In this document: positions 4,835 to 11,163 of the stretch, one piece after another
How the letters are laid out: each line of letters starts with the position of its first letter
Position numbering within the stretch: position 1 is the stretch's first letter
Source of the DNA: Nitrospinae bacterium RIFCSPLOWO2_12_FULL_45_22
GTDB taxonomy: Bacteria; 2-12-FULL-45-22
Length of the DNA: 13,017 bases
Reading direction: 5' to 3'
NCBI GenBank assembly: GCA_001803565.1
Contig: MHDQ01000074.1
Location: 1,200 to 14,216, forward strand
Notes under the pieces: generated by a model
What the model saw: the letters and a program-made list of their open reading frames with translations, nothing else
Told to the model about the DNA's origin: nothing
Databases searched by the model: none
Made by a program: the position numbers and the translations under genes

Positions 4835-5155
4835 GTGCTCAGAAGAGATAATATTAGATTATTTATGGTGTGCGGACTGGTGTTGGTTTTTATGTGTACT
4901 TTGACAACAGGCTGTACCTGGCGCAGTCACGGCATTAAGGCAAAAGATGAGGCATTAGCGGCTGCCCAGAAGGCAGATGCGGCTGCCCAGAAGGCGATGG
5001 AGGCTGCACAAAAGATTGAAGCCTCTGCCGGCACTATAAAAGAATCAGCCGATAAAACTGAAGCGGCTGCTTCGAAGGCGGAGGATGCGGCAAACCGGGC
5101 AGAAACAGCCGCCGAAAAGACCGAGGCTATCTTTGACAAATTGGGCAGGAAGTAA
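4835..5155 (+). CDS. Lpp-like alanine-zipper lipoprotein, copy A1
   Basis: A 106-residue lipoprotein. The signal peptide ends in a lipobox (TLTTGC, Cys 27). The mature part is an almost unbroken run of heptads such as ADAAAQK, AEDAANR and AETAAEK with Ala at both core positions, an alanine-zipper helix, and it ends LGRK. Braun lipoprotein (Lpp) and OprI have the same plan, and the last Lys of Lpp is joined to peptidoglycan by L,D-transpeptidases; Lpp ends YRK. The GTG start at 4835 lies nine bases after GGAGG in a near-perfect AAGGAGGTGAT site. It is the first of four tandem paralogues and is closest to A2 (5642), sharing the IF-K-LGRK end. Trimer formation and covalent attachment are inferred from the family, not shown here. 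Confidence 0.85.
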   Translation: MLRRDNIRLFMVCGLVLVFMCTLTTGCTWRSHGIKAKDEALAAAQKADAAAQKAMEAAQKIEASAGTIKESADKTEAAASKAEDAANRAETAAEKTEAIFDKLGRK

Positions 5156-5164
5156 ATCTGCTAA

Positions 5165-5189
5165 GGGCTGGGTTCAACCGATCCAGCCC
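5165..5189 (+). repeat. Hairpin between lipoproteins A1 and B1
   Basis: GGGCTGG (5165-5171) pairs perfectly with CCAGCCC (5183-5189). The left part, AAGGGCTGGGTTCAACC, recurs with one change at 5981-5997 between A2 and B2. There is no T-tract, so it may serve as an mRNA processing or stability element that sets relative amounts of the two lipoproteins. Confidence 0.6.
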
Positions 5190-5232
5190 CTACCTCTGTC
5201 TCCGAGAGGCAGCAGAAAGGAGGGGATTTTTG

Positions 5233-5547
5233 GTGCAGTTAAGAAAATTAACAGCCATTATTGTGCTTCTAGGATTTCTATTGGCTAATTTAACAGCTTG
5301 TTGCCCAAAATGGCGTAAAGAGACCCTAAAGGCGAGGGATGATGCTATTGCAGCAGCGGCTAAGACCGAAGAAGTCTCAAATAAAGCATTAGGGGCTGCT
5401 TTAGACTTAGAATCCTCGATTCAAGGGGTTAATGATGCTGCCCAGCGGGCAGAAAATGCTGCCACACGGGCAGTAACCGCGGCTGACAAGGCTGAAGCGA
5501 TAGTAGGAAAGATGGAAAAAGCCTTTGAAAAAAGAGGGAGAAAATAA
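5233..5547 (+). CDS. Lpp-like alanine-zipper lipoprotein, copy B1
   Basis: A 104-residue lipoprotein with a hydrophobic signal and lipobox-like NLTAC, followed by a second Cys (ACCPKWRK). The acylated residue is probably the first of the two. The mature helix has heptads such as AENAATR and AEAIVGK and ends EKRGRK, with the terminal Lys in place for attachment to peptidoglycan as in Lpp. Its core is less purely Ala than the A copies (Val, Leu, Ile and Met appear). GTG 5233 lies nine bases after GGAGG, the spacing used by its siblings; a TTG at 5230 is directly adjacent and possible. It is closest to B2 (6038): both have a CxxxWRKE segment after the lipobox and AQRAENAA or GQRAENAA in the helix. 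Confidence 0.83.
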   Translation: MQLRKLTAIIVLLGFLLANLTACCPKWRKETLKARDDAIAAAAKTEEVSNKALGAALDLESSIQGVNDAAQRAENAATRAVTAADKAEAIVGKMEKAFEKRGRK

Positions 5548-5595
5548 TTTAATCGTATAGGAATTTTCATTTTAATAATGCGGTTTTGTGGTAGT

Positions 5596-5613
5596 CGCAG
5601 GTTTTAGCCTGCG
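5596..5613 (+). repeat. CGCAGG/CCTGCG hairpin between the two lipoprotein pairs
   Basis: CGCAGG (5596-5601) and CCTGCG (5608-5613) form a perfect 6-bp stem with loop TTTTAG. It sits between the A1-B1 and A2-B2 pairs, with a few T residues after it (TTAATTT). A weak terminator or processing site is possible. Confidence 0.45.
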
Positions 5614-5641
5614 TTAATTTAAAGAAAGGAGGTGAGATTTG

Positions 5642-5971
5642 GTGATTAGATTACATAATATTAAAGGATTAATGGTTTGTATATTGCTGGTGGCTTTTAT
5701 GGTAGCTTTGAACACGGGCTGCTCCTGGCGGGGTCATGTCAACGATGCCATGAAGGCCAAGGATGATGCCGTAGCAGCGGCTGATAAAGCTGAAGCGGCT
5801 GCGCAGAAGGCGGCGGATGCTGCTCAAAAGATTGAGACTTCTGCAGCAACCTTAAAAGAAACGGCTGATAAAGCTGAAGCGGCTGCTTCCGGGGCAGAAG
5901 ATGCGGCAAACCGGGCAGAAACCGCGGCAGAAAAAGCGGAAGCTATCTTTAGTAAATTAGGTAGAAAATAA
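5642..5971 (+). CDS. Lpp-like alanine-zipper lipoprotein, copy A2
   Basis: A 109-residue lipoprotein and the second A copy. The lipobox reads ALNTGC. The mature part has eight consecutive clean heptads (AEAAAQK, AADAAQK, IETSAAT, LKETADK, AEAAASG, AEDAANR, AETAAEK, AEAIFSK) ending LGRK. Core positions are Ala with two bulky exceptions, Ile and Leu. A1 has the same heptad count and the same C-terminus, so the pair are recent paralogues. GTG 5642 lies nine bases after GGAGG in AAAGGAGGTGAG; TTG 5639 is the alternative. The role is probably an Lpp-like outer-membrane to peptidoglycan tether. Confidence 0.85.
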   Translation: MIRLHNIKGLMVCILLVAFMVALNTGCSWRGHVNDAMKAKDDAVAAADKAEAAAQKAADAAQKIETSAATLKETADKAEAAASGAEDAANRAETAAEKAEAIFSKLGRK

Positions 5972-5974
5972 ACC

Positions 5975-6004
5975 TAGGCAAGGGCTGGATTCAACCCTTG
6001 CCTA
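5975..6004 (+). repeat. Hairpin between lipoproteins A2 and B2
   Basis: TAGGCAAGGG (5975-5984) pairs perfectly with CCCTTGCCTA (5995-6004), a 10-bp stem with a 10-base loop. It holds AAGGGCTGGATTCAACC, shared with the A1-B1 spacer, but pairs through different flanking bases. The hairpin therefore exists at both duplicated junctions with different pairing partners. Confidence 0.65.
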
Positions 6005-6037
6005 CCGCTACGATGAGAAAAAGGGAGGTGTGCCGAA

Positions 6038-6349
6038 TTGCGGATAAAAAGATTACTTATTATTCCTCTAGGGTTGATATTTCTGGTTAATTTAGTGGCC
6101 TGTTCCCCGGCCTGGCGTAAGGAAGCCTTAAAGGCAACGGATGCTGCTGTAGCAGCGGCTGATAAGGCTGATACCGCCTCAAGTAAGGCTTTAGCTGCTG
6201 CTCAAGAGTTGGAAGCATCTATCCAAAAAGCCAATGATGCGGGCCAGCGGGCAGAAAATGCTGCCTCCCGGGCAGAAAGCGCGGCTGGCAAGGCTGAAGC
6301 CGTAGTGCAAAAGTTGGAAGAGACCTTTGCTAAAAGGGGGAAGAAATAG
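6038..6349 (+). CDS. Lpp-like alanine-zipper lipoprotein, copy B2
   Basis: A 103-residue lipoprotein and the second B copy. The lipobox is LVAC, followed by SPAWRKEALK, matching CPKWRKETLK in B1. Heptads include ADTASSK, ALAAAQE, LEASIQK, AENAASR and AESAAGK, and the end is AKRGKK, again finishing in Lys. TTG 6038 lies nine bases after GGAGG (6024-6028), the same spacing as the other three copies, which supports this start although TTG is weak. It is the last gene before the terminator at 6373. If A and B copies mix in one trimer, the basic KRGRK/KRGKK tails of B against LGRK of A could alter attachment; that is speculation. Confidence 0.83.
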   Translation: MRIKRLLIIPLGLIFLVNLVACSPAWRKEALKATDAAVAAADKADTASSKALAAAQELEASIQKANDAGQRAENAASRAESAAGKAEAVVQKLEETFAKRGKK

Positions 6350-7894: not shown

Positions 7895-8413
7895 ATGGTA
7901 GAAGAGTTAAAGCAAAAGATTCGGGACATACCAGATTTTCCTAAGAAAGGTATTTTGTTCAAAGACATTACTACTCTGTTAAGTGATGCCGAGGCATTTT
8001 CCCGGGCAGTTGACCTTATAGCTGAGCGGTACAGGGACAAAAAGATAGATAGTATTGTATGCATTGAAGCGCGTGGATTTATATTCGGTGGTGCTTTATC
8101 ATACAGATTAGGTACGGGGCTTATTCCAGTAAGAAAAGCTGGTAAGCTGCCCTATAAGACTTATAAGGCTACTTATGAGCTGGAATACGGGACGGATACC
8201 CTGGAGATCCATCAGGATGCTATCCAACCCGGCCAGCGGGTATTGATTATTGATGACCTTCTGGCTACGGGTGGTACTACCAACGCGGTAGCTAACCTGG
8301 TCAGGCAGTTAGAAGGTGAGGTAGTAGAGCTGGCTTTTTTAATTGAATTGACTTTCCTGGAAGGCAGGAAAAAACTAATAGATTATGAAGTCTTTTCCCT
8401 AATTAAATTCTAA
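7895..8413 (+). CDS. apt: Adenine phosphoribosyltransferase
   Basis: A 172-residue enzyme of normal family length. It converts adenine and PRPP to AMP and pyrophosphate in purine salvage, in the cytoplasm. Diagnostic segments are all present: [15 protein letters not shown] (12-26), EARGF (58-62), RKAGKLP (80-86), and the PRPP-binding loop [13 protein letters not shown] (116-128). ATG 7895 follows AAGGAGGG. It is 50 bases after the LysM-M23 gene on the same strand and may be co-transcribed. It faces the NifK-like gene tail to tail, with an inverted-repeat-rich spacer between. Confidence 0.97.
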
Positions 8414-8530: not shown

Positions 8531-9853
8531 CTAAGGGAGCTTCAGGATAGCATTTAAGAGTTCTTCTAGTAAGGTTAATACTCCCTGGTAGCCGAGGAAA
8601 GGCCGCTCTGTCAATATAACCTTATCCCATACTGGATAGCCTATATTGATAAAAGGGGTATGGGGTCGAAGCCCTTTTTCTAAGCTGCTACCCAGGATAA
8701 GCTCGGGTTCAGTCTCGGTCAGGGCTTGTTGCACACCATAAAGGTCGTAGTTGGTTAAGATAAGGGGATTTAAGCCGGTGGTTTGCAAAAAGTCTTTAAC
8801 CAGCTTTTCTACCCCGGGGCTATAGGTCTTTAGCCCTAAAAGGGCCGGCTCCAACCCCAAATAATCATAGAAGAATGAGGCCAGGGATAAGGCTGCTGAG
8901 CCTTCAGCAAAGATAGCTACCGAGAGCCCCCTTATCCGCCGGGCCATAGAGATGCGGGAGAGGCGCGGGCGGACTTTTTCTCTTAAGCGACGGGCCTCGT
9001 CTTCTATAAAGCCATCGGCTGATACACCCAGGACAGAAGCAATAGCCCGGAGCCATTCCTGGGTGTTTTGTATACCGTAGGGGGGAAGACGTCCAGCCAG
9101 GTAAGGGAGCCCAAAAACCTCTTCCATCTCCCGGGCTATCAGCCCACCATATTCATCATAAAAGACTACATTAAGGTTTGCTTCTGGTGCCCGTACTATA
9201 TCGGCCAGGGATGTTCCAGCCGTCAGGACAGTATTTATCGCTATCCCTACCCGCTCGAACATCCTTTTTAACTCCTGTAGATCATTATACCAGTTATATT
9301 GCCCTATACTGAGACCGACAATATTTATACTCCTGGGATTCTTTTTTATTGGGGGCTCCATCAATCTATGAACCATAATCTTCACCGCCTGTTGAAACCC
9401 TTCTGCCATGCCTCCGGTAAAGCCACTACTTTCTATGAGGATAGTGGAGGTTCCATCCTGGGGCAGTTCCTTTATTGCTGCCGCAATATTATCTCCTATG
9501 AGGCCCAGGGTACAGCTATTGACGATACCGATAAGGCCGGGGGACTCTTCCTCTTTGATCTTCCTCATGGTGTCTAACAGACGGGTTTCGCTGCCAAAGA
9601 TTACATCTTCTTCCATCAGGTAAGTGCAGGGGACACGGGGTTGGAAAAAATTTTTTAAACTGGCATGCCTCTTAGGGTCAAAAGATAACCCTTCTGGGTC
9701 TTGCAGGTCTATAAAGGATGAGGCAAAGAGCTTACAGCCTATGGGTCCATTGATTAAAGCCACTGCCTCTCGGATACCTTCAATAGCACAGATAGCGCCC
9801 GATAAAGAGCAGGGTAATAAAACATTATTAGGAACAGATTTCGGGCAGCTCAA
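8531..9853 (-). CDS. Nitrogenase component 1-like protein, NifK-like subunit
   Basis: A 440-residue Oxidored_nitro-family protein, resembling the beta (NifK/NifN) branch. Cysteines C15 (LPCSLSGA), C40 (NGPIGC) and C114 (NSCTLGLIGDN) match the P-cluster ligands 70, 95 and 153 of Azotobacter NifK; the first two have the same 25-residue spacing. VPCTYLMEEDVIFGSETRL corresponds to the NifK segment after the second Cys. The C-terminus (GYPVWDKV...GYQGVLTLLEELLNAIL) matches the NifK/NifN ending. It is shorter than NifK (usually over 500), lacking N-terminal and internal extensions. The TTG start overlaps the TGA of the NifD-like gene (TTGA, 9850-9853), with GGAGG just before, so the subunits are co-translated. 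It probably forms a heterotetramer with that partner. The substrate is unknown. Confidence 0.85.
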   Translation of the reverse strand: MSCPKSVPNNVLLPCSLSGAICAIEGIREAVALINGPIGCKLFASSFIDLQDPEGLSFDPKRHASLKNFFQPRVPCTYLMEEDVIFGSETRLLDTMRKIKEEESPGLIGIVNSCTLGLIGDNIAAAIKELPQDGTSTILIESSGFTGGMAEGFQQAVKIMVHRLMEPPIKKNPRSINIVGLSIGQYNWYNDLQELKRMFERVGIAINTVLTAGTSLADIVRAPEANLNVVFYDEYGGLIAREMEEVFGLPYLAGRLPPYGIQNTQEWLRAIASVLGVSADGFIEDEARRLREKVRPRLSRISMARRIRGLSVAIFAEGSAALSLASFFYDYLGLEPALLGLKTYSPGVEKLVKDFLQTTGLNPLILTNYDLYGVQQALTETEPELILGSSLEKGLRPHTPFINIGYPVWDKVILTERPFLGYQGVLTLLEELLNAILKLP

Positions 9854-11163
9854 TCGCCTGTCCTCCAGCGTTCTTTATAATAGGGATTACGTAATAACCT
9901 GGCCCATTCCTTAGCTATCCCTAATGTCCCAGCAGTACCTGTCCGGGGCACCATAGGTATGGTAGAAAAGACCGTGCCAGGAAGGTCCAATTCCAACGGG
10001 TAGAAGGAGAGGCAGAGTTGGGGCTTTGCTTCTTTGACTTCCTCTTCTATCTCAGCCAGAGAAGTCCTCTTTTTTATAGCCAGGCCAGGCCGTGAAATTC
10101 CTAGATTATTTATCCTTTCTGCCGAAGTATCTTCGGGCATAAGGGAGAAAATATTAATGGCCTGGAACTCCATCCCAGCCTGATCAATCAGCTCTACTAA
10201 CCACTCTATATTTTTATCCAGGGTATTAATTATCACCCTTTTGCCAGCCAGAAACATCCTGAGAGGTTGGATAGTTTGGTAAAATCTGCTTTTTTCTTGC
10301 CCGATAAGTTCTGCGGCCTTTTCTTCTTGCCGAAAATACTTTCCTAATTCCTCCAGCCAGGCTTCTGTCTCAGCCAGTCCGGTAGGAAAATCTCGCGCTA
10401 AATATTCCTGACCAAATTTTTCTTTTAATATCTGAGCCACCAAAAGGCCGGTTTCGTATGAGCTAATAAGATTTAGTCGAGATTCAGCCATAGTTTTTAT
10501 TTCTGTCAAAGTAGTTTCTTTAGCAAAGCGGGTATGGACACTAATACCCAGGCAGTCCAACCACCTCTTTATCTCTTTATAGTTCCAGTCTACCTCGGAG
10601 GACATGCTCTTCTCACCCAGGATATTCACCCGGTCAGAGAACCTATCTCTGGGAGGGGCTACCAGGTTTTCAATCAGGTCCCGACAGGCATTCCTCACAC
10701 CCTTCTCGTACCCACCACCCATAAATCCCCCTGACTCAATAACTAATATAGGGATGCCTAACTCCCGCTCCAACTCTTTAGCAATGGCTCTAATGTTGTC
10801 CCCAATGACTTCTACCGCACAGGCAGAGACAATGCTGATCAGATTAGGTCTGTGCCGTTGATAGACTTCTAAAACAACCTCTTTTAATCGGCCTTCTCCA
10901 CCAAATACCATATCCGCTTCCTGTAGACAAGTGCTGACCATACGTGGCGGAGAGAGGGGTACGGCTAATTGGTCATTTATGATCTGTCTGCGCAAGGCCA
11001 TGGATACTTGCATAGCAATATTTTGGTGGATGCAACCTACCGGCCCATGGATTATGACCATACTATCTTTTATCTGCTCAGCTATTACTGCTGCGCCGGC
11101 CATGGTACAGCCATATTGAAGACCTCTGAACCGTGGACTGCTATCTTTACCACATAGCTCCAT
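9850..11163 (-). CDS. Nitrogenase component 1-like protein, NifD-like subunit
   Basis: A 437-residue Oxidored_nitro protein of the NifD/NifE branch. C19 (YGCTMAGA), C44 (HGPVGC) and C115 (SACAVEVIGDN) align with NifD P-cluster ligands 62, 88 and 154, so an Fe-S cluster at the subunit interface is likely. FeMo-cofactor ligands are missing: where NifD has Cys275 before Tyr (HCYRS), this protein has Ser235 (ISSYETG), and no His equivalent to His442 is seen in its short C-terminus. It is therefore not a nitrogenase, and NifE is also unlikely. Relatives such as BchNB, CfbD and methylthio-alkane reductase reduce other substrates with a NifH-like partner, none of which is in this window. ATG 11163 has GGGAGG about 15 bases upstream, a long spacing; an in-frame TGA nearby excludes a longer start. 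Confidence 0.85.
   Translation of the reverse strand: MELCGKDSSPRFRGLQYGCTMAGAAVIAEQIKDSMVIIHGPVGCIHQNIAMQVSMALRRQIINDQLAVPLSPPRMVSTCLQEADMVFGGEGRLKEVVLEVYQRHRPNLISIVSACAVEVIGDNIRAIAKELERELGIPILVIESGGFMGGGYEKGVRNACRDLIENLVAPPRDRFSDRVNILGEKSMSSEVDWNYKEIKRWLDCLGISVHTRFAKETTLTEIKTMAESRLNLISSYETGLLVAQILKEKFGQEYLARDFPTGLAETEAWLEELGKYFRQEEKAAELIGQEKSRFYQTIQPLRMFLAGKRVIINTLDKNIEWLVELIDQAGMEFQAINIFSLMPEDTSAERINNLGISRPGLAIKKRTSLAEIEEEVKEAKPQLCLSFYPLELDLPGTVFSTIPMVPRTGTAGTLGIAKEWARLLRNPYYKERWRTGD

Follow-up and report, generated by a model that had tools for sequence, protein, structure and literature searches.

The window, by which we mean the whole 13,017-nucleotide stretch of DNA that was analysed, is part of contig C74 of a draft genome (3.67 Mb in 321 contigs, 85% complete) in which absences are provisional and a contig may be misplaced. 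Its minus strand carries two overlapping genes for PF00148 proteins, a D-like and a K-like subunit, which stand alone between two genes on the plus strand:

7895-8413 (+): phosphoribosyltransferase gene, flanking the pair
8531..9853 (-): K-like subunit, 440 aa, PF00148, Pfam score 269.2 bits, with a TTG start inside the end of the D gene
9862..9866 (-): GGAGG, a Shine-Dalgarno-like site of K within the end of the D gene, identified from the sequence
9850..11163 (-): D-like subunit, 437 aa, PF00148, Pfam score 252.5 bits
11365-12849 (+): TIR protein gene, on the other flank of the pair

Both proteins score about nine times the PF00148 cut-off of 28.6 bits, and both fall below all specific NCBIfam cut-offs. 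NifE is among the best sequence matches of the pair, and the family models for COR BchYZ and CfbD give weak scores only. An earlier reading of the sequence alone had placed the two genes here with lengths of 437 and 440 residues and an overlap, and the two open reading frames agree with it in each respect. The genes share 4 nt (TTGA) and GGAGG precedes the K start; judged from this arrangement, the pair is translationally coupled. D and K are 31% identical over 288 aa. A recent duplication, which this identity suggested, was rejected because each subunit groups with its own orthologues in the trees. Contig C74 encodes neither NifH nor NifB, and no cobalamin or transporter gene lies beside the pair.

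Other genes of the window have features of their own. The TIR protein has an N-terminal zinc-ribbon-like region; among PADLOC models, PDC-S66 and ThsB come closest to it, and it is possibly a single-gene defence protein. Positions 4835-6349 hold four small paralogous ORFs in tandem, lipoprotein-like and ~105 aa long, whose coiled-coil repeats are rich in alanine, and a methyltransferase gene at 1249-2979, adjoining a glycosyltransferase gene, encodes a long N-terminal coiled coil built from 75-bp (25-residue) repeats.

Interface cysteines and the cofactor pocket

Residue columns were read from a 41-sequence alignment that includes the P-cluster columns of NifD and NifK, and the corresponding codons were located as follows:

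11107..11109 (-): D Cys19, P-cluster column 1
11032..11034 (-): D Cys44, P-cluster column 2
10819..10821 (-): D Cys115, P-cluster column 3
10459..10461 (-): D Ser235, at the position of NifD Cys275 and MarD Cys270
9809..9811 (-): K Cys15, P-cluster column 1 (Asp in the HDK relatives described below)
9734..9736 (-): K Cys40, P-cluster column 2 (Cys kept in HDK relatives)
9512..9514 (-): K Cys114, P-cluster column 3 (Pro in HDK relatives)

The sequence-only reading had assigned six P-cluster-type cysteines to the pair, a Ser to the position of NifD Cys275 and no counterpart to His442, and the alignment bears it out on all three points. C19/C44/C115 of D and C15/C40/C114 of K match every P-cluster column of NifD and NifK exactly, and the Cys275 column is occupied by Ser235 in D and Tyr232 in K. 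The only histidines of D are residues 39, 46, 104 and 210; with none after 210, the positions of NifD His442 and MarD His429 cannot be filled. A Cys/His pair hidden in the cofactor pocket by misalignment, about which that reading had been wary, is absent from the sequence alignment. To our knowledge, every enzyme in which the six-Cys set has so far been seen holds a large cofactor as well (PMC12552129); its occurrence without cofactor ligands is therefore unusual, a point against the reading preferred below.

This combination sets the pair apart from each characterised enzyme with which it was compared. In DPOR, three Cys of BchN and an Asp of BchB ligate one 4Fe-4S cluster. BchNB resembles the pair in having no cofactor ligands and in holding an organic substrate in its cavity, as is proposed for the pair, but BchB has its Asp at P-cluster column 2, whereas window K keeps a Cys in each of the three. 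NifDK and NifEN share the fold and the P-cluster-type Cys with the pair, which differs from both in lacking the cofactor ligands and in falling outside their clades. MAR combines six P-cluster Cys with Cys270 and His429, which hold an [Fe8S9C] cluster (PMC12552129). MarDK, a group IV enzyme, thus has the same three-plus-three arrangement of P-cluster Cys; the pair, in contrast, has no equivalents of Cys270 and His429, lies outside the Mar/Nfa clade and has no NifB in its locus.

Structure models (AF2 monomers built on six sequences) place the pair within this fold. The D model (pLDDT 77) has MarD as its best match, tied with NifD: MarD (9d9u_A; Z 28.3, rmsd 5.2, 357 aligned) and a cofactor-poor NifD match it equally (Z 28.3, rmsd 4.8-5.2, 356-357 aligned), and its PDB fold matches do not separate the families, since MarD, NifD, BchB and NifE fall within ~2 Z units. 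The K model (pLDDT 74.4) is nearest to BchB (3aeu_D; Z 30.3, rmsd 4.6, 381 aligned), with MarK below it at Z 28.2. This modelled proximity to BchB agrees with a DPOR-like subunit and does not decide for one.

Kinship with a NifH-D fusion family

Relatives were sought in about 1,250 genomes, with one further member of the source genome's order among those compared, and by a signature scan of GTDB contigs. A search with the D protein for related loci in genome contigs returned no close relative. The nearest family found is one that we name HDK, in which NifH is fused to D and followed by K. It occurs in seven genomes (G196, G745, G781, G623 (same class as G196); G390 (contig C79), G817, G1167), and the fused form is found in Clostridia. 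Two short signatures in window K recur in this family:

9731..9751 (-): NGPxGCK, K residues 35-41
9629..9649 (-): FxQxR[IV]P, K residues 69-75

Among 121 PF00148 sequences, each of the two signatures is present only in window K and five HDK K proteins. The K proteins of G817 and G1167 also have FxQxR[IV]P, and NGPxGCK reads HGPTGCR in G1167.

The trees give the same kinship. Window D is sister to all HDK D domains and window K to all HDK K proteins, each with support of 100/99; another sequence sample gave sister support of 100/97 and 97/98, and the D and K trees are congruent. A position of D inside the Mar/type-1 clade (G043/G320/G390/Mar) is rejected (AU p 0.0005), as is one inside the NifD/NifE/VnfD clade (AU p 0.0017); K does not join BchB in the tree, with a borderline AU p of 0.048. 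The sequence-only reading had proposed placing both proteins in a PF00148 tree, and in these trees, which are without reference BchYZ, CfbD, IsrDK and NfaDK sequences and include MarD in part only, the pair clusters with no characterised clade. Residues, trees and AU tests together uphold its view that the pair is unlike nitrogenase, NifEN and DPOR and extend this to MAR; the pair is almost certainly not a nitrogenase, a NifEN or a MAR. A degenerate nitrogenase component still reducing N2 would have the overall fold and the P-cluster Cys seen here, but the pair has no Cys275/His442 counterpart and lies outside all nitrogenase clades, and neither nifEN nor a nitrogenase was found in its own 85%-complete assembly, so that we regard this explanation as vanishingly improbable.

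HDK and the window pair share their D and K clades, the K signatures and a D subunit without the cofactor Cys, which is missing at the Cys275 position from all HDK D proteins examined. They differ in that window D is separate from NifH, in that HDK K has Asp/Cys/Pro at the P-cluster columns, keeping one Cys, where window K has Cys/Cys/Cys, and in that the transporter or corrinoid genes seen at some HDK loci are absent beside the window pair. Because its NifH is unfused and its K keeps all three Cys, the pair is not a strict member; as read from these sequences, it is an unfused six-Cys sister lineage of HDK. No description of the HDK family was found, and the openly accessible literature yielded nothing on NifH-D fusions or on Nfl enzymes in corrinoid metabolism. 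The pair itself is real and uncommon, and belongs among the nitrogenase-like, group IV-type reductases.

The HDK family also bears on the cofactor. The genome of G196 (100% complete, 3 contigs) encodes one NifH-D fusion with its K and gave no match to NifB, and a NifB-made cofactor is therefore not needed there. Since the pair shares its clade and its missing ligands with HDK, and G196 has no NifB, the pair probably holds no NifB-type cofactor. The presence of NifB in the pair's own genome counts against this.

NifH and NifB in the source genome

The sequence-only reading had described a self-contained pair without NifH. The absence of NifH stands for contig C74 and fails for the genome, which encodes three NifH domains elsewhere, all keeping the P-loop and both cluster Cys. 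Self-containment is not upheld, with NifH candidates and NifB elsewhere in the genome and NifH fused to D in near relatives. A genome-wide search for an unpaired NifH and for nifB, as that reading had recommended, located a lone NifH on contig C86 and a truncated NifB on contig C80. On C80, a 584-aa NifH-NifH fusion is followed by a SnoaL-like protein and then by NifB, cut short by the contig end; the 3' half of nifB was searched for throughout the assembly and not found. The NifH of C86 (L013 1-8442) has no DK partner nearby. Its grouping with the HDK NifH domains has no support and is not rejected either (AU p 0.29), and the NifH tree supports no specific partner for the pair. The cluster around it contains a variant radical SAM protein, OYE/BaiCD-like flavoenzymes, a nitroreductase, an alpha/beta hydrolase and a 2-hydroxyacyl-CoA dehydratase/benzoyl-CoA-reductase-like subunit.

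The C80 fusion resembles a set of uncharacterised relatives, which we call type 1, with two NifH paralogues (H1 and H2), NifB and DK. The gene order is NifB-H1-H2-D-K in a Tectomicrobia genome, NifB-D-K-H1 in a KSB1 genome and NifB-D-K-H1-H2 in bacterium PL23a_bin.76 (G390), and G043 and G320 have H1-H2-K with D and NifB unlinked. H1 and H2 form anciently split sister clades in the NifH tree that include both halves of the C80 fusion, and the cofactor Cys at the Cys275 position is kept in all type-1 D proteins examined. Loci of this two-NifH/NifB/DK system are L012 4415-7165 (on C80), L109, L142, L144, L077 and L079. In H1, Ser replaces NifH Asp39 (GCSPK) and Lys often replaces Arg100, substitutions that suggest an asymmetric, heterodimeric Fe protein; a conserved system of NifB and double NifH would thus predict a heterodimeric Fe protein. 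The G390 operon (L142 6960-17856) is flanked by genes for two carbon-nitrogen hydrolases, an arginase-family protein and a dihydroorotate-dehydrogenase-family protein with a ferredoxin domain, flanks that hint at a nitrogenous substrate for that system.

Membership of the pair in the C80 operon was the first idea, and the trees and the cofactor-Cys survey moved the pair to HDK. As a rival explanation, the pair would be the catalytic part of the C80 NifH-NifH/NifB system, binding NifB-made [Fe8S9C] through unrecognised ligands and using the double NifH as its reductase. The genome does hold NifB and a fused H1-H2, and no PF00148 pair besides that of the window turned up in the 85%-complete assembly; moreover, G032, KSB1 and G390 have NifB-D-K-H1(-H2) as one operon, and window K matches KSB1_K with 154.8 bits. 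However, the cofactor Cys is present in all five HH/NifB-linked D proteins surveyed, where window D has Ser, and the AU test excludes window D from the Mar/type-1 D clade (p 0.0005, as above). Separate HH/NifB and HDK systems occur side by side in G390, as may be the case in the source genome, where the gap beyond the truncated nifB may hide a second DK, since the 3' half of that gene is missing from the assembly. We hold this explanation to be decidedly unlikely. The matches to NifE and the genomic NifB could suit a scaffold or maturase, NifEN-like, that serves the cofactor of another enzyme; no nitrogenase for it to serve was found in the 85%-complete genome, whose only PF00148 pair is that of the window, D is rejected from the NifD/NifE clade, and the sister family is present in a NifB-free genome, which together make such a role highly improbable.

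Several further nitrogenase-like (Nfl) loci were recorded during the survey. Delta-proteobacterial MAGs (L122, L126, L123, L120) have their own tandem NifH duplication with D and a long K (~580 aa), and no NifB showed up in the stretches examined; in L123 a MarR-like regulator lies upstream. A Sporomusa termitida plasmid (L116 1747-9878) carries a FecCD/BtuC-type importer, NifH, two very divergent Nfl proteins and an alpha/beta hydrolase, with a TonB receptor further on. In G257 (L111 1050-6617, L114 1831-8071), each locus has two very divergent Nfl proteins beside NifH and radical SAM proteins; one L114 Nfl protein is fused to NifH, and some subunits have few cluster Cys. In G1117 (L199 1689-8702), D, K and a NifB-like radical SAM protein lie beside an ABC transporter, an uncharacterised NifB-linked Nfl locus.

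Proposed substrate and reaction

Two of the seven HDK loci lie among corrinoid (cobalamin) salvage genes, and three more are only suggestive. On contig C79 of G390, HDK has CobC, CobS, CobT and a BtuF-like protein in its vicinity. In G1167, a TonB receptor of the heme/B12 type is followed, in this order, by HD, K, a BtuF-like periplasmic binding protein and a BtuF-CbiS fusion. In G196, HDK stands between an ECF transporter ATPase with a DUF4430 protein and an ECF S component, and the HDK genes of G781 and G623 come after one for a cysteine-rich PF04071 protein. The loci of G745 and G817 have no corrinoid genes nearby. The sequence-only reading had left the substrate open among a tetrapyrrole, a thioether and something new; with two of seven relatives in corrinoid-salvage loci, a tetrapyrrole is the better of these guesses, and to that extent the question is narrowed, the window's own locus saying nothing on the matter. 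The assignment is weak for the window pair, because it has no corrinoid neighbour and a search of its genome for CbiZ found none. A corrinoid or any other tetrapyrrole is accordingly only a tentative candidate.

On a rival view, the pair would be a reductase that works without a cofactor, comparable to isethionate reductase, and whose substrate is something other than a tetrapyrrole (a sulfonate, a thioether, an aromatic or a nitrogenous compound). IsrDK is without cofactor ligands, has a single cluster Cys (Cys74) in IsrD and acts on isethionate (PMC11423573). It resembles the pair in having no Cys275/His442 and in its dependence on NifH, which for the pair is proposed; it differs in needing the radical-SAM partner IsrB and in keeping one of the three cluster Cys in IsrD, where window D has all three. 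The OYE/BaiCD-type flavoenzymes, nitroreductase and benzoyl-CoA-reductase-like subunit around the C86 NifH, and the G745 and G817 loci, are consistent with such a substrate, but every informative context in the sister family indicates corrinoids, and we consider a non-tetrapyrrole reductase unlikely.

Our preferred reading, tentative when taken as a whole, is that of an Fe-protein-driven, DPOR-like reductase of an organic substrate, with a corrinoid or another tetrapyrrole as the leading candidate. D and K, most likely assembled as a (DK)2 heterotetramer, would make up the catalytic component of an ATP-dependent reductase of the nitrogenase-like kind. An Fe protein of the NifH type with its gene on another contig, either the lone NifH of C86 or the NifH-NifH of C80, would dock onto this component and pass single electrons, with ATP hydrolysis, to an Fe-S cluster at the D/K interface, for which the three Cys of D and the three of K would supply a full P-cluster ligand set. 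In relatives, FeMo-co or [Fe8S9C] occupies a cavity; in the pair this cavity lacks the Cys/His ligands, and it would contain no nitrogenase cofactor and bind the organic substrate instead, as in protochlorophyllide reductase. A bolder version, which we think somewhat unlikely, is that the pair is the first nitrogenase-like reductase with a P-cluster only, in which an eight-iron interfacial cluster would deliver electrons straight to a corrinoid or large organic substrate with no active-site metal cofactor; the pair would then sit at the branch where the sister family cut its ligands from three plus three to three plus one Cys and fused NifH to D.

The P-cluster is so far known only alongside a large FeS cofactor. 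If this picture is true, an interface with six Cys and no cofactor ligands would part the P-cluster from the cofactor in evolution, and the novelty would rise if the cluster is a P-cluster without a partner cofactor. Together with the three-plus-one Cys of the sister family, the pair would show how DPOR-like four-ligand enzymes and P-cluster enzymes change into one another. A nitrogenase-like reductase in corrinoid salvage would, in turn, put ATP-driven low-potential chemistry to a new use.
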